Shown here: positions 10,901 through 27,044 of the stretch, in pieces | Layout of the letters: each line of letters opens with the position of its first letter | How positions within the stretch are numbered: position 1 is the stretch's first letter | IMG/VR virus record: IMGVR_UViG_3300009026_001181 | Location: 1-30,562 of that record | Source of the DNA: a virus | Length of the DNA stretch: 30,562 nucleotides | Direction: 5' to 3' (one strand) | Program-made: the position numbers and the translations under genes | Notes under the pieces: model-generated | The model's input: the letters and a program-made list of their open reading frames with translations, nothing else | The model's database searches: none | Told to the model about the DNA's origin: nothing

Positions 10901-11325
10901 ATACGACTGATCTGAGTTTTAACTTTACCAATCTCTTCCTTTACCTGTTCTGAAATTGTGGCAGATATATTATCATTTTTACTTATTAGTTTACTCTTAT
11001 CACCCTTATCCATTTTCTGCAACTCTTCTATGTAGCTACTCTTAGTGGTTTGTTTTTCTAAAGGTATTCCAGCATAATTATTTTCAGAATCATCTACCTC
11101 TTCATTTTGATCGTCTTCAACATCTTCAGATATATCCAAGTGTTCTGCGAGCTTTTCACCCAACTTCAATAGAAAATTATCAAATGGTTCTTCTTTTGGA
11201 AATGAATAACTTATTTGTGATTCATTTTCTTCTATTAGATGATTTTCTACAATAGGAGTCTTGCTATCCTTTTCATTCTGTTCTTCTAGTATTTTTGCGT
11301 AAAGTTTGGAGATGTCGTCAACCAT
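7909..11325 (-). CDS. Large repeat-containing tail fibre (1138 aa)
   Basis: Residues 1-140 are acidic and helical (DDISKLYAKILEEQN onward). Residues 146-170 hold the GGGGSVAVQYAKGG and NGDLNVTGK block shared with the 2860-4026 protein. Residues about 325-590 are tandem fibre repeats built from (T)TVxxNSASW, NYQGSDIKALTG, WVGGNAAYT, DTGVRALT and LSFLSVSGNW. Residues about 790-920 form a domain with VRGDVVYAFGATGG and YITCVGRMENL, seen in other phage fibres. The C-terminus ends GATIDGQPTYTLMNQYEA then DGTNYFIQ, a common fibre cap. It heads the leftward block, with CATAAATA on the minus strand 11 bases before the ATG. It is probably a long tail fibre component. No catalytic motif is visible. Confidence 0.78.
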   Translation of the reverse strand: MVDDISKLYAKILEEQNEKDSKTPIVENHLIEENESQISYSFPKEEPFDNFLLKLGEKLAEHLDISEDVEDDQNEEVDDSENNYAGIPLEKQTTKSSYIEELQKMDKGDKSKLISKNDNISATISEQVKEEIGKVKTQISRMAIEGGGGSVAVQYAKGGVMNGDLNVTGKYLSGGIDLSTIIGSGGSSGGGGLSGTTDRLVSGTEVFKLNTDGTFNFPNNIITPQDEIILTLEATKVLDGYYNRLALSPHGFFASDHNGNSITIDSTDNEILIDSNNTYYWKFNNQGALEGPFGTLSVSGNLSATGRVYQNGNDLQSEIESISAISISTTTTVQSNSASWNYQGSDIKALTGGWVGGNAAYTTVQANSASWAIDSTTDTGVRALTAGWIGGNAAYTNLVYNSAAYLSGYDLSFLSVSGNWNSAYTTVNTNSASWAIDSTTDTGVRALTSNWQNTFTTVQDNSANWNYQGSDIKALTGEWVGGNAAYTNLVANSAAYLSGVAIDLSFLSVSGNWNSVYSTVNSNSASWDYQGSDIKALTGNWQEAYTNLVSNSAAYLSSVDLSFLSVSTNWDSVYTTVLNESASWIGGGGSISGDYLPLSGGTMTGAISFGSLYGSKIDQGVYDSSRSGLSGISLVCSVNYDFNWQAGWITSLQQDRLTPMPLYIDSGAGTSLRVWNGNYIGDGTGTEITHTGITFADNTNQTTAFTGNTLSFDETTKDLSISNGNTVSLSALVDSTTDTGVRLLTSNWESTFTTVLGNSADWEGAYTTLQANSGTWGLSTTSEVLIAEVKNAEAIQLVRGDVVYAFGATGGTMSVKLASAATEAGSSKTIGIVNGTISAGGTGYITCVGRMENLNLGAFSEGDGLWLSTTPGDFTNVRPTQPNHGVYIGVVERANNGNGILYVRIQNGYELNEIHDVLINGVKAGDSLQRNNTNTLWINVPLSANTTYTTVNSNSAAWSAVTSYSSLIGNNLTNPLTATHNLNTKDIIFSVREVTTNKIIQAAGRTVDDNNLELTFNSIPTVNQYDLTVLCNGGIAGTSNGTTNVFALTTLSSTTNIQSVAYTHYLYNDSITSGQMTVYLLPPSNHIGVTQHKKIGSTANVVLSAPNGATIDGQPTYTLMNQYEAIGLYTDGTNYFIQ
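9560..10345 (-). repeat. Tandem fibre repeats, degenerate at DNA level
   Basis: Within the large fibre gene, blocks of about 75-190 bases recur with near identity, for example around 9889-9965 and 10257-10333 (WVGG...LTG followed by NYQGSDIK). At protein level the unit is NSAxW plus NYQGSDIKALTGxW or DTGVRALTxxW plus NAAYT. Such repeats are prone to slippage and gene conversion and set the length of the fibre shaft. Confidence 0.7.
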
Positions 11326-12179: not shown

Positions 12180-12512
12180 GTGAATTTCACCAATCTTATT
12201 AATCTGGTTCTTGAAGGGGATTTCAATCCGTTGTATGATACACATCATAGTGAATTATCACCACAAGATATTCAGAAAATGCCAAAATCTGAAAGAAAAG
12301 CCATATCATTGAAAGATACATCTAAAAGAGAATTTTCTGTAATAGTGAATGGTAAAGAGATTAAAACATTCACCACATGTAAAAATTCTGCAATAGGCAA
12401 TGTTGCATATAATATGAGTTTGGATGGTAAATTAAATCCCGCAGTTGTTGTTAAGAGATTGCATGAGATGGGTGTGATGGTATATGATAATAAGTGGAGC
12501 ATTAAATATTGA
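12180..12512 (+). CDS. Hypothetical protein with N-terminal tag-like peptide (110 aa)
   Basis: The start is GTG at 12180 because the ATG at 12178 reads ATG-TGA. The protein begins MNFTNLINLVLEGDFN, a short amphipathic helix ending at E12 followed by Gly, similar in place and character to the leaders of the genes that follow. The rest (about residues 20-110: SELSPQDIQKMPKSERKAI, then a beta-rich half with VIVNGKEIKTF and VVVKRLHEMG) matches no family I know. No Shine-Dalgarno sequence is seen. A possible virion-internal protein; this rests on the tag pattern and neighbourhood. Confidence 0.6.
   Translation: MNFTNLINLVLEGDFNPLYDTHHSELSPQDIQKMPKSERKAISLKDTSKREFSVIVNGKEIKTFTTCKNSAIGNVAYNMSLDGKLNPAVVVKRLHEMGVMVYDNKWSIKY
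12501..12508 (+). promoter_or_regulatory. Late-promoter-like motif ATTAAATA
   Basis: ATTAAATA lies 5 bases before ATG 12514 and overlaps the end of the preceding gene. It is one mismatch from TATAAATA at the core and two overall, so it is weaker than its neighbours. Confidence 0.45.
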
Positions 12513-14494: not shown

Positions 14495-15421
14495 GTGAGA
14501 TTTGATAAAATATGTAATGCCATTTTAGAGAGAGTGTTTCATGGAACAGCGCATGATGTTGTCGGCAACTTCTCATTAAATAAAATAGGAACTGGTGAAG
14601 GTAACATTGCATATGGTTGGGGTTTATACTTTGCAGAGAATCCAAATGTTGCACAAGACTATAGAAAAGGATTAAGTCACAGACATTTACTCGATAAAAT
14701 AAGAGAAGTATATGATGAACTGGACTCATCAGACGATGCAATCGAAGCACTTAAAGACGCTGGATTGAGCGAAAAGGAAATAAATCTTGTTCAAGCACTC
14801 CAAGGTGATGATTTCTTAGGTTTCGATTATCCGCACCAAGCAGTCAATGCTGCACTCAAAGAACCTCATAATTTTGAATTAAGTGACGAGACGAAGATGG
14901 CTGTTGCAAATATGGGTAATCTTTATGAGGTGAACATTCTTGCTGATAAAGAAAATGACTTTCTACAATGGGATAAACCTTTAAGCGAAGAAGAATTGAT
15001 TGGATTTTTACCAAAGGGATTATCGGCAGATGATGCTGTGCTTATGTATCAAGATGTTGATAAAATTGCTGGAGAACATCTTGCTGGTAAATTATCGTAT
15101 GAAGAATTTGACAAAGCTCAAAATAATATAATTTCTCGGATAGGTGGCATGATTTCTAAAGCTAGAAAGAAGGTACATTCATGGACAAGTGGAAAAGTGC
15201 TTTATGACTGCTTCACATTTAGCGAAGGTAGTAGAAAAAAAGCATCTAATGTATTATTATCCCTTGGTATCAAAGGCATACGTTATTTGGATCAAGGTAG
15301 TCGTGGAACTGGAGAAGGAACATACAATTATGTTATATTTGACCCAAGTGTTATTCAGATTGTATCTAAGAATGGTGAATTCGTAATGTCATCTAAGACA
15401 CCAGAAAATGTAGAGGTCTGA
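14495..15421 (+). CDS. ADP-ribosyltransferase-like protein (ART-PolyVal type), tagged
   Basis: The protein has 308 residues from GTG 14495; the ATG two bases earlier reads ATG-TGA. The leader MRFDKICNAILERVF carries an I-L-E site (E12). Directly behind it, FHGTAHDV (15-22), IGTGEGNIAYGWGLYFAEN (31-49) and, near the C-terminus, RYLDQGSRGTGEG with NYVIFDPS match the ADP-ribosyltransferase domain found in polyvalent proteins. HGT and the GWGLYF stretch mark the NAD site, and the conserved YVIFD strand is present. T4 packages ARTs (Alt) in the head and injects them to modify host RNA polymerase and other targets. A similar use here is suggested by the leader and late promoter. The target is unknown. 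Confidence 0.75.
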   Translation: MRFDKICNAILERVFHGTAHDVVGNFSLNKIGTGEGNIAYGWGLYFAENPNVAQDYRKGLSHRHLLDKIREVYDELDSSDDAIEALKDAGLSEKEINLVQALQGDDFLGFDYPHQAVNAALKEPHNFELSDETKMAVANMGNLYEVNILADKENDFLQWDKPLSEEELIGFLPKGLSADDAVLMYQDVDKIAGEHLAGKLSYEEFDKAQNNIISRIGGMISKARKKVHSWTSGKVLYDCFTFSEGSRKKASNVLLSLGIKGIRYLDQGSRGTGEGTYNYVIFDPSVIQIVSKNGEFVMSSKTPENVEV

Positions 15422-15424
15422 GTC

Positions 15425-15455
15425 AAATAATGGTTTCGTTCAACTATTAGAAAAT
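15425..15455 (+). repeat. 31-bp direct repeat, left copy (flanks the 15476 gene)
   Basis: Begins AAATAATGGTTTCG and ends ACTATTAGAAAAT. The second copy is at 16285-16315 with one mismatch (C/T). The core CGTTYAWCTATTAGARAAT is also found at 18457-18475 and 20031-20049. Confidence 0.85.
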
Positions 15456-15462
15456 TTTTTAT

Positions 15463-15470
15463 AATAAATA
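15463..15470 (+). promoter_or_regulatory. Late promoter motif AATAAATA
   Basis: AATAAATA lies exactly 5 bases before ATG 15476. It directly follows the 31-bp repeat. Confidence 0.5.
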
Positions 15471-15475
15471 ATCCT

Positions 15476-16285
15476 ATGCGTGATAATGATAACATCATTT
15501 TAGAAAATCTTTATACTGGAATTATTTTGAAAGAGAACGATAGTTATTCGAAAGAACTATTCTCATCGGAAAAAAATAAAACAATTTCAAATGAAGAGAA
15601 GTTGATTCTGCGAGCGCAACGAATGGCATCTGATGGCACGACTGAAGAAAAAACGTTCTCTGGTCCAAACTCGATTCAAGAACTAAAAGATTGGGTGGAC
15701 GATTGGGTTGGTCTGGACGGTGATATTTCAGATTTAAATAATATAGTCTCTTTAGATGGTTATCAGAGAATACATGTGCAAGGTTTGCCTGTTGGTGGCT
15801 TAAGTAAGATTCTTAGAGCCGATAGATTCAAATTCAGTCAACCAGAACTGGATTATGTCGGAAGCCTCGCTGAAACTGCGATGCGGCTTAATCATCCTAG
15901 ACTCCTATCAGTTGCAAAAATTAAACCCGATTACGACAAGACGGGTAGAGAGATTGGGATTCATTTTAGAGTTGGAGAGGGAAAATTTGGTGATCCACAT
16001 GGTAAAGAATCAAGACCGCGTGATTGGACAATGCATTTTGATGTAACATATAGCGGTGAAATTGGAAAAGTGCGAGTAATTTTGAACATTTTTAACTGGG
16101 ATGGAACTATGGAACCCACTTCACGCACCGTGGACATGTCATGGCCAGGTTATGAATTCGATTTGACTGGAGAACGCGAAAGGGATTTAGAAGAGATTGA
16201 GTCGGTTTTAATTAAATATAAACCACAGATCGAGCAATTGGAACGTCTACTTACAAAGGCCACATTGCCAAACAAGTATTTTTAA
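15476..16285 (+). CDS. Tagged hypothetical protein, putative virion-internal cargo (269 aa)
   Basis: The first 20 residues, MRDNDNIILENLYTGIILKE, align without gaps to those of the CCA-adding enzyme at 18496 (11 of 20 identical), with the I/L-L-K-E site at position 20 in both. The bodies are unrelated. Residues 20-55 look disordered and charged. Residues 60-269 appear to be a mixed alpha/beta domain with WVDDWVGLDGDISDL, HVQGLPVGGLSKILRADRF, HFRVGEGKFGDPHG and a Trp-rich beta part (WTMHFDVTYSG, FNWDGTMEPTSR). I recognise no family and no catalytic motif. The gene is bracketed by 31-bp direct repeats and ends exactly where the second repeat starts. Confidence 0.7.
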   Translation: MRDNDNIILENLYTGIILKENDSYSKELFSSEKNKTISNEEKLILRAQRMASDGTTEEKTFSGPNSIQELKDWVDDWVGLDGDISDLNNIVSLDGYQRIHVQGLPVGGLSKILRADRFKFSQPELDYVGSLAETAMRLNHPRLLSVAKIKPDYDKTGREIGIHFRVGEGKFGDPHGKESRPRDWTMHFDVTYSGEIGKVRVILNIFNWDGTMEPTSRTVDMSWPGYEFDLTGERERDLEEIESVLIKYKPQIEQLERLLTKATLPNKYF

Positions 16286-16315
16286 AATAATGGTTTCGTT
16301 TAACTATTAGAAAAT
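16285..16315 (+). repeat. 31-bp direct repeat, right copy
   Basis: Second copy of the 15425-15455 repeat, starting on the last base of the TAA of the 15476 gene. Confidence 0.85.
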
Positions 16316-16327
16316 CCTATCTAATAG
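16304..16327. terminator. AT-rich hairpin between convergent genes
   Basis: CTATTAG (16304-16310) pairs with CTAATAG (16321-16327) over a 10-base loop. It lies between the convergent ends of the 15476 (+) and 16332 (-) genes. It is GC-poor and has no strong U-tract, so it may be a weak bidirectional terminator or a recombination-related stem-loop. Confidence 0.35.
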
Positions 16328-16331
16328 GAAA

Positions 16332-16865
16332 TCAGATGTCCATTGAACTTTCTTTCGCTTCAAGGCTATCCATGTATTGTATAATGCTATATATCATCTC
16401 ATCATCTTCTACTGGCCCAATGATAATCTCATCTGGAGTTATTGGATTCCAACCCTTTGACATTTCAGAGTCTTGCTGGTCAATATAAATCTGATATTTT
16501 ATTCCTCTGTTCGATGATTGTCTTTGTGTTTTCTCTTCACTTGGGGCTATGTATTTGTATAGATACGATCTAGTTTTATCCTCGATTGTTATTCTATCAT
16601 CTTCAAAATCAACAATTTTTATAAAAGAAGCTTGACGACCATCACCCCTGCAACGTAAATACCAAGACATTTCTTTTAAGTCACCCTTATCAATAGCATT
16701 TGTAAAGTTTTGTCTCGGTAAAGAATATATATCATCACCCAACACTTCGGCTATATCTCCATCCATATCTAATTTGAATTCAGAATCATGGTTTTCGTTG
16801 ATATAACTTCTATTTAAAATGTTTTCGTATGCCTTTTCTAAAAGGATTGTATCATTTGACTTCAT
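16332..16865 (-). CDS. Tagged hypothetical protein on the opposite strand (177 aa)
   Basis: Minus strand, ATG at 16865. The leader MKSNDTILLEKAYENILNRS resembles those of the 15476 and 18496 genes (pattern M-[RK]-S/D-x-D-x-I-L-L-E-x-x-Y-x-x-I-L), with a possible I-N-E cleavage site at residue 24. A perfect TATAAATA lies on the minus strand 9 bases upstream. The body has SLPRQNFTNAIDKGDLKEM, FIKIVDFEDDRITIEDKTRS and the C-terminal WNPITPDEIIIGPVEDDEM. It looks like a compact alpha/beta domain, and I do not recognise it. It is the only tagged gene here that points left, which shows that the tag travels with the gene and not with one operon. Confidence 0.68.
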   Translation of the reverse strand: MKSNDTILLEKAYENILNRSYINENHDSEFKLDMDGDIAEVLGDDIYSLPRQNFTNAIDKGDLKEMSWYLRCRGDGRQASFIKIVDFEDDRITIEDKTRSYLYKYIAPSEEKTQRQSSNRGIKYQIYIDQQDSEMSKGWNPITPDEIIIGPVEDDEMIYSIIQYMDSLEAKESSMDI

Positions 16866-16924: not shown

Positions 16925-17040
16925 ATGAAACTCGGCCCAAAATATTTTTATAAATCTTAATATTTTTTGTAAAAAATACATTCATCTGAGATAAATAATA
17001 TCAAATGATTGGAAAAGGATCAGAATTAAAAGAGAACGAA

Positions 17041-18264
17041 ATGCATAAAGCATTTAAGTTCCGTTTGCTTCCTACAAAGGAGCAGGAAGTTCTTTTGGCA
17101 AAGCATTTTGGCTGTTCAAGATTCATCTATAATCATTTTTTAGCTGAAAAACAGAAGCATTATTTGGAAAACAAAGAGACACTAAAATTCAATGTTTGTC
17201 AAAATATGCTTATTAAGCAGAAAAAAGATGAAGGATATGAATGGTTAAAAGAAGTTAATTCTCAATGTTTAGTAGCGACATTGGTCAATTTAGAGACATC
17301 ATATACAAACTTTTTCAAGAAAAAATCTAAATTTCCTCGTTTTAAATCGAAAAGGAACAAAAACTCGTTTCAGATCCCTCAACACGTAACTTTAAAAGAG
17401 CATAACGTAGTTCAAATACCAAAGTTCAAAGAAGGCTTAAAATTTGTTAAGCACAGAGAATTAAAAGGAGAAATTAAGAGTGCAACTATTTCTAAAACCC
17501 CTTCTGGTAAATACTACATTTCATTTCTTTGTGTTGTAGAAAAAACAACTAAACACAAAAAGACAGGGAAGAGTATTGGAATCGATTTAGGGCTAAAGGA
17601 CTTTCTTATTACTTCAGAAGGACAAAGGTACTGTAATCCTAAGTTCACTAAAAAGTACGAGGTTAAGTTAGCAAAAAAACAAAGAATTTTAAGTAGAAAA
17701 GAAAAAGGATCAAAAGGAAGATACAAAGCTCGTTTGAGCGTTGCTAAAGTGCATGAGAAGATAACCAATTCTCGTAATGATATGCAACACAAAGTCTCCT
17801 CCAAACTAGTAAAAGACTATGATCTGATTGCAATAGAAGACTTGAACGTAAAGGGAATGGTTAAAAACCATAAGCTGTCTAAAGCAATATCAGATGTAGC
17901 ATGGAGTAGTTTTGTCTCCAAATTAAAGTACAAAGCACAATGGAATGACAAAGAAGTGATCGTTATAGATCGCTTCTATCCGTCTTCCAAAACATGTAGT
18001 TGCTGTGATCATGTCAAAGAAAGCCTTTCATTAGATGAAAGGACTTGGACTTGTTCTAAATGCGACACAATACATGATAGAGATGTTAATGCAAGTAAGA
18101 ATATTTTGCGTAGAGCATTAGCAATTCAATCGACAGGAACTGTCGATAACAGGAATGGAGCTAAGGTAAGACCAGAGGTTGTTTCTAAAGCAACTAAAGG
18201 CACTGGCGTTGAAGTTCTTAAAAAGAAGGGTAGAATTTATACCCTGAAGCCAGTAGGTCTTTAG
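17041..18264 (+). CDS. tnpB: TnpB RNA-guided nuclease (IS605 OrfB)
   Basis: I start at ATG 17041 (MHKAFKFRLLPTKEQ, the canonical TnpB N-terminus; 407 aa). An upstream ATG at 17005 would add MIGKGSELKENE, with a GATAAATA motif 7 bases before it. The RuvC-like motifs are intact: GIDLGLKDF (first Asp), AIEDLNVKGM (Glu) and HDRDVNASKNIL (last Asp). A CxxC...CxxC zinc finger lies between (SCCDHV, CSKCDT). TnpB uses omega RNA from the element's right end to cut DNA at a TAM-flanked target, which favours retention of the element. The gene looks complete and functional. Expression from a phage late promoter is possible. Confidence 0.92.
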   Translation: MHKAFKFRLLPTKEQEVLLAKHFGCSRFIYNHFLAEKQKHYLENKETLKFNVCQNMLIKQKKDEGYEWLKEVNSQCLVATLVNLETSYTNFFKKKSKFPRFKSKRNKNSFQIPQHVTLKEHNVVQIPKFKEGLKFVKHRELKGEIKSATISKTPSGKYYISFLCVVEKTTKHKKTGKSIGIDLGLKDFLITSEGQRYCNPKFTKKYEVKLAKKQRILSRKEKGSKGRYKARLSVAKVHEKITNSRNDMQHKVSSKLVKDYDLIAIEDLNVKGMVKNHKLSKAISDVAWSSFVSKLKYKAQWNDKEVIVIDRFYPSSKTCSCCDHVKESLSLDERTWTCSKCDTIHDRDVNASKNILRRALAIQSTGTVDNRNGAKVRPEVVSKATKGTGVEVLKKKGRIYTLKPVGL

Positions 18265-18280: not shown

Positions 18281-18453
18281 CTGGTGAGGCTTATGTATAT
18301 GTGGAAGTGAGTGAAGATAAGCCATTAGATGAGAAATATAAGGAAGGTGCATTGGAAACACTACCGAGAAGGTTTTCACAATCACCAGTTGCAATATTCA
18401 ATAAGGGTGGGGGGAGAATTGAAGTTAGTATGAGAAAACCATACGATTATTAA
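18281..18453 (+). pseudogene. 3' remnant of a gene cut by the tnpB element
   Basis: Directly after the right end an open frame with no start of its own runs to TAA at 18451-18453: GEAYVYVEVSEDKPL, then ALETLPRRFSQSPVAIFNKG and IEVSMRKPYDY. It is in the same frame as tnpB and separated from it only by the tnpB stop. It reads as the C-terminal 55-60 residues of a beta-rich protein whose 5' part is missing. The bases left of the element do not supply an obvious matching start, so insertion was probably accompanied by loss of the 5' part. Function unknown. Confidence 0.6.
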
Positions 18454-18475
18454 ATCCGTTCATCTATTAGAGAAT
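18448..18475 (+). repeat. 28-bp direct repeat, left copy (flanks the CCA-enzyme gene)
   Basis: Begins TATTAAATCCGTTC and ends TATTAGAGAAT. An identical copy is at 20022-20049, inside the last codons of the 18496 gene. Confidence 0.88.
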
Positions 18476-18482
18476 ATTCCGT

Positions 18483-18490
18483 AATAAATA
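18483..18490 (+). promoter_or_regulatory. Late promoter motif AATAAATA
   Basis: Exactly 5 bases before ATG 18496, directly after the 28-bp repeat. The layout matches that upstream of the 15476 gene. Confidence 0.5.
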
Positions 18491-18495
18491 ATTGA

Positions 18496-20061
18496 ATGCG
18501 AAGCAAAGACCAAATATTATTGGAAAGTCTTTATGAAAGGATTCTCCTGAAAGAAGATGATGAATTTTCCAATAAGTGGAACAATGCATTGAATGCTTCC
18601 GAAGAATTAGCAAATGCAGTTGATTTGATGAAGAATATTAAATCCATATTTCCAAGTGGTGAAATATATATAGTAGGTGGAGTGCCAAGAGATTTGTTGA
18701 TGGGTAATGAAGTAGATGATGTTGATCTTGCGACAAATATACCATTTGAAAAATTAGAAAACAAGTTTGAAATAAGAAACATATCCAAAAACGATTCTCA
18801 ACCAGTTTATGATATTAAGTGGAGGGACTATCATTACGATTTGGCGAAGTTTAGAACCGATTCTGGTAATATTGGAAGACAAAACAACGTATCAACAGAA
18901 ACAGATTCTTTTCAAAAAGATACAGAAAGAAGAGACTTAACAATTAATTCATTTGGTATAGATGAGAATGGAAATATAATAGACCATCAAAATGGTCTGG
19001 ATGATTTAAAAAACAAAATTGTTCGTGCTGTTGGCGATCCAAAGAAGAGATTCATGGAAGATGCCACGAGAATTTTAAGGGTTTTTAGGTTTGCGGCAAA
19101 GATGGGGTTTGATCTAGATCAACAAACAAGAAATGCCGCTGTTGATTTGAAGGATATTCTTTTAAATCCAGAACTTATATCATCTGAAAGTATTGCGAAA
19201 GAATTTTATAAATCGGCAAAGAGTGGAAAAACTTTAATGCAATTTTTGAAAATGTTACAGGATAATAAAATATTACATGATATTATTCCAGAATTTACGT
19301 CAATGGAGGGATTTATGCATAATCCTAAACATCACCCCGAAGGAGAATCCAGAGTTCTTGGTCATATATATGAATGCTTGTCTGTTTCTCCATTTACAGA
19401 TCCTGTTATAAATCTTGCGATATTGTTTCATGATTTTGGAAAAGCAACAACAAGGGAGGAGAAAGAAGGGCAATCAACATATCATGGGCATGAAGAAGCT
19501 GGTGTTCCTATAGTGGAGAATATTTTTAAAAGATTGGTATTTAATGATCTATCAGCCGAAGATAAAAAAAATATTTTACAAGCTGTTGCAAAACATATGC
19601 TTGTTCATAATCTTGATAATCTTAATATAAAAACATTATCCAGACTCATACTTGATCCATCTTGGAATATTGTAAAATCGGTTGCATATTGTGATGAGGC
19701 ATCGAGAGGAATTTCGCATTTTGATAAAAAGGAATTTGAAGAAAAAATAAAAAGAGCTGAAGAAAAAGTTTCTAATTTGGGTGGGGATAGTGAAGACTTG
19801 AGAAGAAAAATTAAACAATACATAGATGGTGGAAAAATTATGAAGTGGTATCCAGAAACACATCAGAAACCAAAATTTGGAATACTATTAAAAAAAGCAC
19901 AAGATTATGTTTTGGAACTTTTGAATTCAAACGAGGAACCGAATGATGAAATGCTAAAAAAATATACAGATTCTGTTTATAATGAATCTTTTATACATTT
20001 TACATTTAAAGACTTTTTAACTATTAAATCCGTTCATCTATTAGAGAATCCTATCTATTAG
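18496..20061 (+). CDS. cca: CCA-adding tRNA nucleotidyltransferase with HD domain, tagged
   Basis: The protein has 521 residues. The leader MRSKDQILLESLYERILLKE is the same type as at 15476. The enzyme begins at about residue 40: IYIVGGVPRDLLMG (nucleotidyltransferase GG motif), VDDVDLAT with catalytic Asp75 and Asp77, RRDLTINSFGID (about 155), and FMEDATRILRVFRFAAKMGF, the class II CCA-enzyme head and neck. An HD domain follows (AILFHDFGKATTRE, YHGHEEAG), as in E. coli Cca. The enzyme adds or repairs the 3' CCA of tRNAs using CTP and ATP. Four of the five intact tRNAs in this window lack encoded CCA. The leader suggests that the enzyme is packaged and enters with the DNA. The last 14 codons coincide with a repeat copy. 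Confidence 0.88.
   Translation: MRSKDQILLESLYERILLKEDDEFSNKWNNALNASEELANAVDLMKNIKSIFPSGEIYIVGGVPRDLLMGNEVDDVDLATNIPFEKLENKFEIRNISKNDSQPVYDIKWRDYHYDLAKFRTDSGNIGRQNNVSTETDSFQKDTERRDLTINSFGIDENGNIIDHQNGLDDLKNKIVRAVGDPKKRFMEDATRILRVFRFAAKMGFDLDQQTRNAAVDLKDILLNPELISSESIAKEFYKSAKSGKTLMQFLKMLQDNKILHDIIPEFTSMEGFMHNPKHHPEGESRVLGHIYECLSVSPFTDPVINLAILFHDFGKATTREEKEGQSTYHGHEEAGVPIVENIFKRLVFNDLSAEDKKNILQAVAKHMLVHNLDNLNIKTLSRLILDPSWNIVKSVAYCDEASRGISHFDKKEFEEKIKRAEEKVSNLGGDSEDLRRKIKQYIDGGKIMKWYPETHQKPKFGILLKKAQDYVLELLNSNEEPNDEMLKKYTDSVYNESFIHFTFKDFLTIKSVHLLENPIY
20022..20049 (+). repeat. 28-bp direct repeat, right copy
   Basis: Identical to 18448-18475. It encodes part of the CCA-enzyme C-terminus (IKSVHLLEN). 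Confidence 0.88.
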
Positions 20062-20119
20062 AAAATCTCTCCCAATCACGCCGCGCAATCATGTATATGA
20101 TATTTTCCCGTAATAGGGC

Positions 20120-20155: not shown

Positions 20156-20407
20156 ATGAAAGTAATTATCGAATCACTCATCACTCTAGTCGAAAACGAA
20201 AACTTAGAGAAAGCACTAGGTAGAAGCACTAAAATTGTAACTGAGAAGGTCAGAGATGATCTTGTCTCATTTGTAATTGATACAGAAGATGTATTTAAAA
20301 TCGCCAAGACTCATGGTATTGAGGAAGCGAACAAGTCAATCGACAAAGTTCTTTCCAAGTATGCCGATGAACTAAAAGGCAAAGTTGGTGCAATTATCAA
20401 CAGCTAG
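20156..20407 (+). CDS. Small helical hypothetical protein (83 aa)
   Basis: I use ATG 20156 (MKVIIESLITLVENEN) rather than the upstream in-frame start, because the latter falls on the -35 element. The N-terminus is again a short amphipathic segment with an L-V-E site (E13) followed by Asn, although the promoter is host-like. The rest is mostly helical and charged (VTEKVRDDLVSFVIDTEDVFKIAK, and VLSKYADELKGKVGAI). No family is recognised. A strong terminator follows about 45 bases after the stop, so it forms a single-gene unit. Confidence 0.62.
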   Translation: MKVIIESLITLVENENLEKALGRSTKIVTEKVRDDLVSFVIDTEDVFKIAKTHGIEEANKSIDKVLSKYADELKGKVGAIINS

Positions 20408-20450: not shown

Positions 20451-20495
20451 AAATTCCCAAGATGCTTCGGACTCTTGGGAATTTTTCTTTTTATC
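20451..20495 (+). terminator. Rho-independent terminator
   Basis: A 12-bp stem, AAATTCCCAAGA (20451-20462) with its complement at 20473-20484, 10-base loop, followed by TTTCTTTTT. It ends the 20156 unit and insulates it from the late promoter at 20496. Confidence 0.92.
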
Positions 20496-20503
20496 TATAA
20501 ATA
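20496..20503 (+). promoter_or_regulatory. Late promoter motif TATAAATA
   Basis: A perfect match exactly 5 bases before ATG 20509. Seven of its eight bases belong to the 58-bp duplicated module. Confidence 0.62.
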
Positions 20504-20554
20504 ATTGAATGCTGGATAAAATCCAATCTTTTAATAGTTTAGTTGATCTAATAG
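20497..20554 (+). repeat. 58-bp module, copy 1: promoter, start codon and tag
   Basis: Identical to 20873-20930. It spans most of the late motif, the 5-base gap, the ATG and the codons for MLDKIQSFNSLVDLI. Sequence similarity stops right after the tag. Confidence 0.93.
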
Positions 20555-20880
20555 AGAATTTTTCCGAAAATAAATATAGACCAATAACTTCTGCAAAAGT
20601 TGATTTATGGATAGAAGAGGATGATTTCGGAGAACCTGTTACGAGAATTGATAGTATTAAAGTCCCCAAGTTAAAAAGATATAAAGGAGAAGGGAAAAAA
20701 GAAGTTGAAAATATTATTAAATGGAGTTTAGAACAAGGATCGAAAGAGATAGTTATTGAATCGGAAAGAGATGCAATTTCATTTTGGAAAAAAATGGGAT
20801 TTGATATAAATGACCAAGGAAATGAAGTATCGACTGGAATATTGAAACTTACGGACAATGAAAGATTTAACCATAAATAA
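20509..20880 (+). CDS. GNAT-type acetyltransferase-like protein, tagged (123 aa)
   Basis: The leader MLDKIQSFNSLVDLIENF is shared at DNA level with the next gene and has an L-I-E site (E16). Behind it, RYKGEG (57-62) fits the acetyl-CoA-binding R/Q-x-x-G-x-G/A of GNAT motif A, followed by a helix (VENIIKWSLEQG), EIVIESERDAISFWKKMGF (81-98, GNAT motif B with A-x-x-F-W-x-x-x-G-F), and a final strand GILKL. The protein is short and lacks some of the N-terminal GNAT strands, so it is a minimal or degenerate member. The substrate is unknown. The late promoter and leader suggest a packaged protein. Confidence 0.7.
   Translation: MLDKIQSFNSLVDLIENFSENKYRPITSAKVDLWIEEDDFGEPVTRIDSIKVPKLKRYKGEGKKEVENIIKWSLEQGSKEIVIESERDAISFWKKMGFDINDQGNEVSTGILKLTDNERFNHK
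20872..20879 (+). promoter_or_regulatory. Late promoter motif CATAAATA
   Basis: Exactly 5 bases before ATG 20885, overlapping the stop of the GNAT-like gene. Seven of its eight bases lie in copy 2 of the 58-bp module. Confidence 0.58.
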
Positions 20881-20930
20881 TTGAATGCTGGATAAAATCC
20901 AATCTTTTAATAGTTTAGTTGATCTAATAG
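20873..20930 (+). repeat. 58-bp module, copy 2
   Basis: Identical to 20497-20554, 376 bases downstream, in front of an unrelated coding body. Confidence 0.93.
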
Positions 20931-21619
20931 TCTTGTGCGAGGGATATTTCCACGTTCCAGATAGTGTCATTGCACCCATCAAGAGTGATTTTGTGGATGT
21001 GATTAAATACAAGGACGATGAACTTGAAAAGAATTACGAATTGGATTTTTCTAAAACAAGTTATGATTTTCTAAATGAATTAGAACCACAACCATCTGTG
21101 GATGTGAGATTTACAAAAGGAAAAGGAAAGAGGAGAGGTTCGTTTCATGTTACCGATTCTATTAAAATGGCGAGAAACAATGCCTTTGTTCAGTTGGATT
21201 TCTCAGCGGATAAACCAGAAAGAATTTTATCAGATGTAATTGAACATGAGATTTCACATTTCGTTCAAAAACTAATTAGAAAATACAATCAAGAAAAAAA
21301 GGGATATGGTTCATTGGGTGGATTGCCAAGCAAAAGACTTTTAAAAGGATTGGAAAAAAACCCATCAATACATTCCCATAAACCAAGTGAGATGTATCCA
21401 GACTTATTGTCTGCCATAAGAGAACTTGAAGTGATGTTCAATCGTGAAGAAGAAGGCATTTCAAAAAAGCAATTCTTTTTAAATTTTCTGAAAGCAATAA
21501 AAGATAAAAAACCGATTGGAAAAATTGCATACGATGTATTTTACGATATACATGACTTATCCAAAGACCTTTACAGGGACTTTGTGAAGAAAGCGTATGT
21601 GGCTTTTGTGGAAAGTTGA
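20885..21619 (+). CDS. HExxH zinc metalloprotease-like protein, tagged (244 aa)
   Basis: The leader MLDKIQSFNSLVDLI is identical to that of the previous gene and runs on to LCEG, giving an L-C-E site at E19. The body carries HEISH at 121-125 within SDVIEHEISHFVQKL, the zinc-binding HExxH of gluzincin/metzincin-like peptidases. A beta strand with AFVQLDF precedes it, as in the usual edge-strand layout. The third ligand cannot be assigned with certainty (candidates lie in the helical part after residue 150). No signal peptide is seen. If packaged, it could act on host proteins after entry or on virion proteins during maturation. Both ideas are inference. Confidence 0.68.
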   Translation: MLDKIQSFNSLVDLIVLCEGYFHVPDSVIAPIKSDFVDVIKYKDDELEKNYELDFSKTSYDFLNELEPQPSVDVRFTKGKGKRRGSFHVTDSIKMARNNAFVQLDFSADKPERILSDVIEHEISHFVQKLIRKYNQEKKGYGSLGGLPSKRLLKGLEKNPSIHSHKPSEMYPDLLSAIRELEVMFNREEEGISKKQFFLNFLKAIKDKKPIGKIAYDVFYDIHDLSKDLYRDFVKKAYVAFVES

Positions 21620-22044: not shown

Positions 22045-24063
22045 ATGATCCTGCAAGACAACGACACAATCATCGAACAGATCGGTGAAGTAAAAGAAGA
22101 AGCACAATTCAAGATGAAGGCAAGCCGCAAGGCATTCCAGATTCTCTCTGACCTATACTCCGATAAACCACTCGCAATCGTGAGGGAGTTGGGTTGCAAT
22201 GCCTCTGATTCCATGACGGCATCTGGTCAATCCGATAAACCATTCCATATCCACTTGCCCAATGCACTTGAACCTTGGTTGACTATCCAAGATTTCGGAA
22301 CTGGTATCTCCCATGAGAACATCTACAACATCTACACAACCTATTTTGAGTCCACAAAGACCAATACAAACTCACAGATTGGTTGCTTGGGACTTGGTAG
22401 CAAATCCCCATTCTGCTACACCGATAACTTCACCATCACCTCCATCCACAATGGGGAGAAACGTATCTACAATGCCTACTTCAATGCGGCAAATATGCCA
22501 ACCATTAGCCTTATGTCTTCTGACAAGACCAAGGATGGTAATGGTGTAGCAATCCAGATTCCAATCAAGGTGAGCAATTTTGCTGATTTCAGTCATGCGG
22601 TCTATAAGGCATTCCGATTCTTTGATGTTAAACCAACCATCTCTGGTGGTAAAATCGATTGGGATGAAATCAAACCAGACTTTACTGGTGCATTCTGGAA
22701 ATCTTATCACAAACTGAATCAATCATTTGCTATCATGGGTGGAGTTACATATCCCATCGAAACATACAAAGTGGATGGTGAACACTACGACATTCTACGC
22801 AAAGCGGGTCTTGTTATTCGATTTGAGATTGGCGAGATTGACTTCACTCCATCACGCGAATCTATCTCCTATTGTGATGACACTATCAAGGCAATCAATG
22901 CCAAGGTAGCACTTGTGAAAAAGGATTTCGTCACCAAGGTAGAGGAAATGGTGAAGGATTCAGACAATCTTCTGGATGCCATGAAAGCATATTATTTGCT
23001 GGAAGGTCAATGGTCTTTCCTCAATTCAAAAATGGTTAAGGGAAAAGTCAAATGGAAAAACATTGATATTTCCAATCCAAGATCAGTCATCAAAGACAAA
23101 GTGAAACTAACGTCTATCTGCAAAAAGCAATGGGGGCGAGGAAAGACAAGCGTTTCGGAATTTGCCGCACTACACAATAATGCCTTGTGGTTCTACGATG
23201 ATCTCAAGCGTGGTGGAGCAATGGCAAGAATTTCGCAAGAAATTCGTATGAGTCAAAATGCCGATATTGCAATCAATTATGTTGATGAGAAGGATATGAT
23301 GACTCTAATCCAATTAGGATTCCCCGCATCAGTATTCCAGTTGGCATCTTCACTCCCTGCTGTTTCAACAATACGCAAGTCATCTGGTGGTGGTGGTGGC
23401 GGTTGTGGGAAACCAAAAGGCGTAGTGGTAGTTTATAGCCTTGGTAGCACCCACAAAGACGCTTGGGACAGCAACGATCACAACCTTGGGGTAGATGCAA
23501 CACCAAAGTATTATATCGTCAAAGAGGGCAATACATTTAAATTCGATGCAGGAACAATAAAAGACGACAAGGGCAAGGATATTATTTCTGTCAAGGATAA
23601 ACATACATACCAAGCGGTTGTCCGATATTTCGGATTGACAGAAAAAGATGTTGCATTGGTAGCCAAACGTAGTGGTGAGTTGCTAGAGGCACTTGGATCA
23701 AAACCATTCAACGAATTAGTTGACAACGAATCAGTCACATACGATTTGGATGTATTGAATGAGGTTTCTCTAATGGATCATTCTGTTATTGACAAAATCT
23801 CGAAACATAGAACCTTCCCCAAGCTATCAGACGAGAATCCTCTCAAGGTATTCATATCCGATTGCGTCAAGAAAAGAAAAGATTCAAAGAAGACAAACAA
23901 TTTATTTTCTTGGATATGCAATATAAAGAACCCAACCACAAAAAAAGAGTTGACATTCCCAAATGCTTTAGTAGAGTTAATGTATCAATCACTCACCAGT
24001 TGGAGAGTGAATGAGCGCATGGTGCTGGAAGCGGCACTTGAGACAGAAAACAAATCCAACTAA
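22045..24063 (+). CDS. rIIA: RIIA-like protein with GHKL ATPase domain
   Basis: The protein has 672 residues (T4 RIIA has 725). ASRKAFQILSDLYSDKPLAI leads into VRELGCNASDSM, the GHKL N-box with E48, N52 and D55. DFGTGIS (83-89) is the G1 box, and GCLGLGSKSPF (113-123) is the G2 lid. This is the RIIA layout. Later features are a Gly stretch, SSGGGGGGCGKPKG (about 450), and a helical C-terminus. In T4, rIIA and rIIB affect lysis inhibition and are needed to escape exclusion by the lambda RexAB system. The molecular mechanism is still unclear. rIIB follows 32 bases downstream, and the pair has its own repeated leader. There is no tag peptide and no late motif. Confidence 0.9.
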   Translation: MILQDNDTIIEQIGEVKEEAQFKMKASRKAFQILSDLYSDKPLAIVRELGCNASDSMTASGQSDKPFHIHLPNALEPWLTIQDFGTGISHENIYNIYTTYFESTKTNTNSQIGCLGLGSKSPFCYTDNFTITSIHNGEKRIYNAYFNAANMPTISLMSSDKTKDGNGVAIQIPIKVSNFADFSHAVYKAFRFFDVKPTISGGKIDWDEIKPDFTGAFWKSYHKLNQSFAIMGGVTYPIETYKVDGEHYDILRKAGLVIRFEIGEIDFTPSRESISYCDDTIKAINAKVALVKKDFVTKVEEMVKDSDNLLDAMKAYYLLEGQWSFLNSKMVKGKVKWKNIDISNPRSVIKDKVKLTSICKKQWGRGKTSVSEFAALHNNALWFYDDLKRGGAMARISQEIRMSQNADIAINYVDEKDMMTLIQLGFPASVFQLASSLPAVSTIRKSSGGGGGGCGKPKGVVVVYSLGSTHKDAWDSNDHNLGVDATPKYYIVKEGNTFKFDAGTIKDDKGKDIISVKDKHTYQAVVRYFGLTEKDVALVAKRSGELLEALGSKPFNELVDNESVTYDLDVLNEVSLMDHSVIDKISKHRTFPKLSDENPLKVFISDCVKKRKDSKKTNNLFSWICNIKNPTTKKELTFPNALVELMYQSLTSWRVNERMVLEAALETENKSN

Positions 24064-26050: not shown

Positions 26051-26095
26051 ACGAAACAAGTGAATGAGAGGTCTTGGTGAATAAATATTTTATAT

Positions 26096-26168
26096 TGCGG
26101 GTTACAATTCTGGCGAATTGGAATGTCTCATAAGCATTTTTAGGTGGATTCGATTTCCACACCCGCTA
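26096..26168 (+). tRNA. tRNA-Met (CAU)
   Basis: The 73-base cloverleaf has D stem CAAT/ATTG, anticodon stem AATGT/GCATT with loop CTCATAA (anticodon CAT), and T stem GTGGA/TCCAC with loop TTCGATT. The acceptor pairs 2-7 with 66-71, while the outermost 1-72 is T-T. An unpaired 1-72 recalls initiator tRNA, but the three G-C pairs of an initiator anticodon stem are absent. Elongator Met or an Ile tRNA with modified C34 are alternatives. CCA is not encoded. Confidence 0.85.
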
Positions 26169-26177
26169 ATTTTAGTA

Positions 26178-26249
26178 TGGTATGTAGCTCAAATGCAAGA
26201 GTCCTACATTGTAGGTAGGAGGTTATGGGTTAAAGTCCCATCATACCAG
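26178..26249 (+). tRNA. tRNA-Thr (UGU)
   Basis: Acceptor TGGTATG/CATACCA is perfect. Anticodon stem CCTAC/GTAGG with loop ATTGTAG (anticodon TGT), T stem ATGGG/CCCAT. The D arm is slightly unusual (loop without GG, base 26 apparently missing; 72 bases). CCA is not encoded. Confidence 0.82.
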
Positions 26250-26255
26250 AAAAAC

Positions 26256-26331
26256 TGATGCGTAGCACAGAGGTAGTTGCATCCGCCTGTTAAGCGGAAT
26301 GTCGTTGGTTCGATCCCAACCGCATCAGCCA
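26256..26331 (+). tRNA. tRNA-Asn (GUU)
   Basis: Acceptor TGATGCG/CGCATCA is perfect. D loop AGAGGTAG, anticodon stem TCCGC/GCGGA with loop CTGTTAA (anticodon GTT), T stem GTTGG/CCAAC, discriminator G. CCA follows at 26329-26331, the only encoded CCA in the cluster. Confidence 0.93.
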
Positions 26332-26347
26332 AATTTAGATTGAAAAA

Positions 26348-26376
26348 GGTTCTCGATGATCCAGATGAAAAAATCG
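26348..26376 (+). repeat. 29-base structured repeat, copy 2
   Basis: Second copy of 25771-25799. One of the two differences turns the C-G pair next to the CGAT/ATCG stem into T-A together with a change on the other side just outside the repeat, so pairing is kept. Confidence 0.75.
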
Positions 26377-26503
26377 AAAAATAGTTCTTGCTATTGTTAG
26401 TGAAAGCAGATAATATATTGGGAGTAATGAAGGTTACCCAAACCTTGTAAAAATAATTGGAATATATTTTTGAAAGAATAGGTAGAGAAAATAATTTACA
26501 TTA

Positions 26504-26588
26504 GCTGATGTGGCGGAACTGGTTATACGCAACAGACTTAAAATCTGTCGCCCATTTGGGCATGAGGATTCGACTTCCTCCATCAGCA
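26504..26588 (+). tRNA. tRNA-Leu (UAA)
   Basis: Acceptor GCTGATG/CATCAGC is perfect. Anticodon stem ACAGA/TCTGT with loop CTTAAAA (anticodon TAA). A long variable arm has stem GCCC/GGGC, as expected for Leu. T stem GAGGA/TCCTC, discriminator A. CCA is not encoded. 85 bases. Confidence 0.94.
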
Positions 26589-26599
26589 CTTTTTAAATT

Positions 26600-26951
26600 G
26601 GGGGAGTAGCTTAATGGTTAAAGCAGTTAAAAAAAGCTGGCTGTTTCGTATCGTGAGATACGTTGATTGCAATACTGATAGATGCGGCTCATAGTATTGT
26701 GACCATAAGGAGTGATCCTTATTGGAAAACTGGATGAACTCAAAGAAAGCCTATGAATAATAGGTCAACATTGAGCCAAGCCAAGAATACATTCTTGGAA
26801 GGTGCAGAGACTACTTGAGAGGTATAGTCCTCTTAATAACAAGATTAAGCGTCCAGCAACTCTTAAATGAGTTGAAGATATAGTCCATGAAGTATGGTAA
26901 CATACACAAACATAAACTGATTGAGTGTCGGTTCGATCCCGACCTCCCCCA
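26600..26951 (+). tRNA. Intron-split tRNA-like gene, anticodon not resolved
   Basis: The 5' part has GGGGGAG, TA and a good D arm GCTT-AATGGTTA-AAGC. The 3' part has T arm GTCGG-TTCGATC-CCGAC, then CTCCCCC (perfect acceptor) and A. Between them lies a group I intron. With the best splice sites (after 26628 and after 26919) only about 61 bases remain, some 12 short of a tRNA, and no canonical anticodon arm forms. Either a splice site is misplaced or the gene is degenerate. CCA is not encoded. Confidence 0.6.
26629..26919 (+). other. Group I intron (about 291 bases, no ORF)
   Basis: P1 pairs the 5' exon end AAGCAGTT (26621-26628) with GGCTGTTT (26639-26646), 8 pairs with U-G at the splice site. 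P2 is CGTATC-GTGA-GATACG (26647-26662). Element R is TGCAGAGACTAC (26803-26814) and element S is AAGATATAGTCC (26875-26886), joined by P7 pairing GACTA/TAGTC. P9 is GTATG-GTAA-CATAC (26892-26905). The likely terminal G is at 26919. R and S are near-consensus for self-splicing group I introns such as T4 td. The 3' boundary is the least certain part. Confidence 0.88.
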
Positions 26952-26971
26952 CTTAAAATACTAATAATCAA

Positions 26972-27044
26972 GTCCCTGTGATGTAATCGGATAGCATAAG
27001 GCTCTTCTAAAGCCTTCGACCAGATTCAAGTTCTGGCAGGGACA
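26972..27044 (+). tRNA. tRNA-Arg (UCU)
   Basis: Acceptor GTCCCTG/CAGGGAC is perfect. D stem ATG/CAT with GG in the loop, anticodon stem AGGCT/AGCCT with loop CTTCTAA (anticodon TCT), T stem CCAGA/TCTGG, discriminator A. CCA is not encoded. It reads AGA, a codon common in this AT-rich genome. Confidence 0.93.

Follow-up and report, generated by a model that had tools for sequence, protein, structure and literature searches.

A duplicated promoter-start-tag block in a putative internal-protein island of a divergent T4-type phage

Which genes surround the duplication described here? The window, that is, the whole stretch of 30,562 nt that was analysed, yields PHROG matches to rIIA (8.9e-120), rIIB (2.5e-77) and a PhoH-like protein (3.1e-58) and also carries tail-fibre genes, which together assign it to a T4-type phage. 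Best identities of the rIIA protein are <40% over about half to 60% of its length, placing this phage at a distance from cultured ones. Head genes, tail core genes, a prohead protease and late transcription factors were all absent from the 30,562-nt contig. A scan with the promoter-start 15-mer, which gave mostly noise among the matches listed, was the source of a relative, L007, which belongs to an IMG/VR contig of 28,380 nt (G001) and has the gene order of the window; ART alignment provided two further syntenic contigs, L132 and L133. Nine genes, each opening with a short tag-like sequence, occupy the interval between PhoH and rIIA; they are referred to below as the island and are listed in order:

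12180..12512, + strand: tagged 110-aa gene (VNFTNLINLVLEGD), with homologues in L007 and L132
12514..14283, + strand: 599-aa gene with the tag-like start MNFKRLCEL (the ORF list calls its start at 12484)
14495..15421, + strand: tagged stand-alone ART-like protein (VRFDKICNAILE), matching ART-PolyVal at E=5.5e-6 and present in the relatives
15476..16285, + strand: tagged 269-aa gene (MRDNDNIILENLY); its place in L132 is taken by a tagged but unrelated 589-aa gene
16332..16865, - strand: tagged 177-aa gene (MKSNDTILLEKAY), with a homologue in L007
18496..20061, + strand: tagged tRNA nucleotidyltransferase (MRSKDQILLESLYERILLKE); L007 has a methyltransferase-like gene here
20156..20407, + strand: 83-aa gene with the tag-like start MKVIIESLITLVE, the conserved left neighbour, with a homologue in L007
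20509..20880, + strand: GNAT-like ORF of 123 aa, whose first 15 codons (20509-20553) are the tag
20885..21619, + strand: HExxH ORF of 244 aa, whose first 15 codons (20885-20929) are the tag

The 599-aa gene is missing between the 110-aa and ART genes of L007 and L132. An IS605-type TnpB-like ORF (17005-18264, +) lies where L007 has an intact 75-aa gene; in the window, seemingly only the C-terminal part of that gene is left, at about 18290-18453 downstream of TnpB. A similar TnpB precedes PhoH in L132.

The last two genes of the island begin with the same front end, which comprises or adjoins these features:

20451..20492, + strand: terminator-like hairpin followed by a T-run, between the 83-aa gene and copy 1
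20496..20503, + strand: putative T4-type late-promoter-like octamer TATAAATA, copy 1
20497..20554, + strand: promoter-start-tag block, copy 1, 58/58 identical to 20873-20930
20872..20879, + strand: putative octamer CATAAATA, copy 2, overlapping the final codons of the GNAT-like ORF
20873..20930, + strand: promoter-start-tag block, copy 2, orthologous to the copy in L007

The two blocks are the longest common substring, identical at 58/58 positions; widening the match leftward to 20490/20866 gives 63/65, and within the 30,562-nt record the block matches at these two places only. It consists, in order, of ATAAATA, ATTGA, the start codon ATG (at 20509 in copy 1 and 20885 in copy 2), 15 tag codons (MLDKIQSFNSLVDLI) and one extra base. 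An earlier sequence-only reading had reported this identity over 58 bases, across promoter motif, start codon and tag, and it is exact in both copies at the positions given, the start of the feature as a whole (20496) falling one base before the identical block. The sharp end and unrelated bodies that it described are likewise borne out, as identity drops abruptly to 17/60 over the next 60 nt, where the GNAT-like and HExxH bodies are compared. Third codon positions of the tag are the same between the copies at 15/15 sites, versus 68/100 at conserved HExxH residues between the window and L007, which argues for recent ancestry of the copies as DNA (or for conversion) and not for protein constraint alone. 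Chance is no serious option for the source of the identity, and constraint on the protein alone appears unlikely.

Could a whole tagged gene have been duplicated in tandem, with one body then diverging by vertical descent? The two genes are adjacent and share their start, but tags at 58/58 contrast with bodies at 17/60 nt, the bodies differ in length and lack convincing protein similarity, and L007 holds the HExxH gene only. We reject whole-gene duplication on this identity profile and regard it as scarcely credible.

What do the two bodies encode? The 123-aa ORF matches a PHROG acetyltransferase at 5.5e-4 and Pfam Acetyltransf_1 at E=0.0054, which is below the family cutoff, and its assignment as a GNAT is weak. 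Its body matches the C-terminal half only of GNAT profiles and PDB sequences and may be truncated or minimal. Residues 14-16 read LIE, a predicted cleavage site that is completed by the codon straddling the block end, so that the predicted cut would remove just the shared tag. In the HExxH ORF, the next [LIVMF]-x-E site is LCE at residues 17-19, and the eponymous motif is HEISH at residues 121-125 (HEILH in L007); no named family was matched. AlphaFold models of the HExxH and GNAT proteins had a pLDDT of about 40, too poor for a fold search. The HExxH, GNAT and 269-aa proteins had zero matches in the phage collection, the HExxH alignment search returned L007's contig only, again, and a search of genome contigs for the GNAT body and TnpB found neither. 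Against a database of 12 sequences, the GNAT and CCA bodies matched weakly (E=0.016), which was dismissed as chance.

In L007, the corresponding site reads 83-aa gene, terminator-like hairpin, CCTAAATAACTAC, ATG and tagged HExxH gene, with no GNAT gene between the 83-aa and HExxH genes. The hairpin folds at -11.4 kcal/mol (z -3.7) there and at an MFE of -15.1 kcal/mol (z -4.1) in the window (20451..20492). The two HExxH proteins are 70% identical, and tag and body have diverged alike (23/33 versus 319/426 nt identical), which makes the tag native to HExxH, the two having been inherited together; copy 2, being located on HExxH, is thus the ortholog of the L007 copy. These observations do not support, as worded, the proposal that the unit that moved was regulation plus label and not the gene. 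Promoter, start and tag do form a common unit, recurring elsewhere in the four contigs, but HExxH was already tagged in L007 and the comparison of tag with body in this relative reveals no difference in divergence. A better picture than a moving label would be that promoter-tag sites receive new bodies or swap one body for another. Apparently, the window lineage gained the GNAT body together with one extra front end, the site being covered by a single relative.

Alternatively, GNAT may be ancestral and have been lost in L007 by recombination between front ends, with gene conversion keeping the window copies alike. Such repeats can delete the gene between them, and the comparison is one of two contigs. 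However, the GC content of the GNAT body (29.8%) is below that of the HExxH body (34.0%) and the 83-aa gene (36.5%), which weakly favours a recent gain, and a recent gain explains the identity without conversion. We therefore consider loss unlikely, if still conceivable. Wider searches for the front end were sparse in their returns: the exact 38-mer of the tag had zero matches in IMG/VR, the degenerate pattern MLDKI..F..LV had none, the pattern MR..D.ILLE.LY had one match in a frame with stops that was taken as chance, and a promoter-plus-tag pattern gave four loci, where follow-up recovered zero tagged late genes.

Might the duplication be an assembly artefact, in which contigs or strains were joined at a common promoter-tag, or a k-mer was duplicated? 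The contig is metagenomic, the repeat is about the size of assembly k-mers, and no second GNAT-bearing contig was found. Yet both ORFs are complete, the flanks differ between the copies, copy 2 starts within the GNAT stop region, and the 83-aa gene on the left and HExxH on the right are ordered as in L007. Misassembly is unlikely, and we give it very little weight.

Returning to insertion or exchange of bodies, three nearby sites in the four contigs (window, L007, L132 and L133) hold differing bodies behind similar promoter-tag starts. The gene following PhoH is the 110-aa gene in the window, L007 and L132 but a 337-aa gene tagged MRDNDSLILEQIY in L133. After ART, the window carries the 269-aa gene tagged MRDNDNIILENLY and L132 the 589-aa gene tagged MRDRDSLILESLY, while L007 has a 220-aa gene on the opposite strand without such a tag. 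Ahead of the 83-aa gene, a tRNA nucleotidyltransferase (window) and a methyltransferase-like protein (L007; Pfam 1.4e-6) both stand behind ATAAATAATTGAATGCG. The 269-aa and 589-aa genes agree at 49/56 positions upstream, at 29/39 in the tag and at 24/81 over codons 24-50. When L132 is compared with L007, the 110-aa gene forms an island of 80-100% identity, with PhoH at about 60% and ART at about 70% on either side, and the left edge of this identity island is the promoter-start region. The four syntenic contigs have the ART domain as a protein of its own, which starts directly behind a 12-residue tag ending in ILE, whereas most of the other loci examined embed it in large proteins, from several hundred up to several thousand residues long. 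The ART genes are also mosaic, that of the window being nearest to L132 in one stretch (56/60) and nearest to L007 in others (54/60).

Several of the variable genes are bordered by an AT-rich stem-loop repeat (R):

15425..15478, + strand: R repeat, a stem-loop that runs into the promoter and start of the 269-aa gene
16285..16338, + strand: R repeat behind the 269-aa gene, 81% identical to 15425-15478 (fold z -3.1)
18445..18498, + strand: R-like repeat before the tRNA nucleotidyltransferase gene
20019..20072, + strand: R-like repeat at the end of the tRNA nucleotidyltransferase gene

Orthologous sites, in other words, hold differing genes between similar flanking elements, the pattern that defines repeat-based shuffling. 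The last codons of the tRNA nucleotidyltransferase read through the R-like repeat at 20019-20072, resulting in the C-terminus TIKSVHLLENPIY.

What do the tags have in common? By residue 20, [LIVMF]-x-E is found in 13/13 tagged starts versus 25/59 background proteins from T4 and the window (Fisher p=8e-5, a value that overstates the case because the tags are partly related and not independent). This motif is close to the site recognised by the T4 prohead protease gp21, but it is short and common, and V-L-E is its sole form in the tag of the 110-aa gene. The tags comprise several unlike groups: an identical tag occurs on two unrelated bodies, and a second group (MR.ND..[IL].LE.LY-like) on several unrelated bodies. 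Among them, no MKT[YF].EF-like sequence and no resemblance to the T4 leader MKTYQEFIAEA was found. A large tail-fibre-like ORF at 11325 (-) has a start, MVDDISKLYAKILEEQ / MVDDISKLYAKILEE, that resembles the cargo tags, either by chance or because the motif is non-specific.

Upstream of the tags, ATAAATA lies at -12 to -16 of 7/9 tagged starts; the 83-aa and 599-aa genes lack it at the usual distance, and the untagged PhoH has it there. With 7 occurrences in the window versus 3.75 expected, TATAAATA is not clearly above chance in total and appears telling only by its position before tagged starts. A Shine-Dalgarno-like motif was found at 0/9 tagged starts. At T4 late promoters, transcription begins a few bases past the octamer, and if the starts of the island resemble these, its mRNAs would be leaderless or nearly so. 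Outside the island, the genes at 22045, 24096 and 25169 (+) have A-rich leaders and no Shine-Dalgarno-like motifs; the absent Shine-Dalgarno motif and the A-rich leaders are perhaps a hint at the kind of host.

Together, we think it probable that the locus is a divergent T4-type internal-protein (cargo) island, wherein promoter and tag serve as a fixed socket and recombination joint and the body changes. The front end of most island genes consists of a late-promoter-like ATAAATA 12-16 nt before the start and a tag of 10-20 residues with [LIVMF]-x-E. If these proteins behave like the internal proteins of T4, their tag would direct them to the prohead core and then be removed by a prohead protease, after which they would travel in the head and be delivered along with the DNA. 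The GNAT-like body of the window lineage would have entered at the promoter-tag of HExxH, the older gene, so that each of the two genes now has its own copy of the front end, and the joining itself would have occurred through front-end recombination. The direction of gain, late expression, head targeting, cleavage, injection and front-end recombination are what we infer from these comparisons; the words 'late' and 'cargo', used in the sequence-only reading, are borrowed from T4, and head-targeted cargo function is likely by the same analogy.

The duplication could instead be a scar of homologous or microhomology recombination, the tag being some other N-terminal feature (for instance, an assembly, membrane or virion-tail association helix) whose copy was kept for the sake of promoter and start. 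This would sit well with tags that differ from the T4 CTS, with the similar start of the tail-fibre ORF and with a cleavage motif that is common in the background (25/59), but it leaves unexplained that such tags recur on unrelated bodies at four sites in four contigs and that T4 IP genes have a matching anatomy. We deem this reading unlikely, though deserving of some weight.

The parallel that speaks for an internal-protein island is close. T4 ipII and ipIII are neighbours with unrelated bodies and an exact common block of 47 nt, namely ATTTAAAGGAAACAT plus the first 32 nt of the CDS; among about 200 fetched loci, no convincing pair of exact starts with different bodies turned up apart from those in T4 and the window, the rest being low-complexity or internal repeats. 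Both cases have adjacent small genes, an exact upstream-start-leader block (47 bp in T4, 58 bp in the window) and a leader with an x-x-E motif, which in the window is a putative cleavage site. They differ in that the window tag is unlike MKTYQEFIAEA, that head targeting is proven in T4 only, and that the window has ATAAATA 12 nt before ATG and no Shine-Dalgarno-like motif, whereas the T4 block has AAAGGAAACAT ahead of ATG. A short leader common to proteins with unrelated bodies, as in T4-type internal proteins, is thus present, but the leader sequence differs and membership in this class is therefore not established.

Shuffling at such loci has precedents, too. Repoila et al. (1994, in EMBO J) reportedly described T-even IP loci in which variable leader-tagged ORFs lie between repeated flanks and proposed that recombination shuffles them; the flanks are said to have early promoters overlapping inverted repeats, whereas the repeated block of the window combines a late-promoter-like octamer with the tag. 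Similarly, Arbiol et al. (2010, in Genome Biol Evol) reportedly presented promoter/stem-loop repeats of T4-type phages as the joints at which variable genes recombine. As a stem-loop element beside promoters, the R repeat resembles these mobile regulatory cassettes, but in the window it occurs together with an N-terminal tag and a putative late-type promoter.

In T4, 10 residues of IPIII suffice for packaging, gp21 cuts after L/I-X-E, the propeptides of IPII and IPIII are identical, and the CTS has been suggested to be perhaps an evolutionary means for T4-like phages to incorporate various proteins into the capsid (PMC9026906). Ip1-3 have the leader alone in common and each blocks a distinct restriction enzyme (PMC12373910), and T-even internal proteins are diverse, with the CTS as their sole conserved part (PMC3012670). 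T4 Alt, an ADP-ribosyltransferase carried in the head, loses its N-terminal propeptide to gp21 (PMC9026906); the window also has a tagged ART-like protein, which differs in matching the ART-PolyVal model. That a leader admits various proteins is hence a principle already proposed in this T4 literature. What the present case adds is its family of tags, a late-promoter-like octamer within the block, the kinds of candidate cargo and the comparison with an empty site.

If this interpretation is right, the tags offer a sequence handle to predict head-carried, injected proteins of non-model T4-type phages. T-even internal proteins have been predicted in this way, several of them being inhibitors of host restriction enzymes (PMC12373910). 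Thanks to the sister contig without GNAT, the step assumed in the usual proposal on CTS evolution, the joining of a new body to a promoter and tag already in place, becomes directly testable. The candidate cargo (ART-like, GNAT-like, tRNA nucleotidyltransferase, methyltransferase-like and HExxH proteins) is enzyme-like and could act in the host straight after injection. More generally, and held only tentatively, a compact module of late promoter, start and tag might constitute a socket at which recombination adds or swaps bodies; a single step would make each of them a late-made, head-packaged and injected protein, and one genome would use several tag types. Apart from the tagged tRNA nucleotidyltransferase, the contig also carries a cluster of five tRNA genes (Met, Thr, Asn, Leu and Arg) at 26095-27044.
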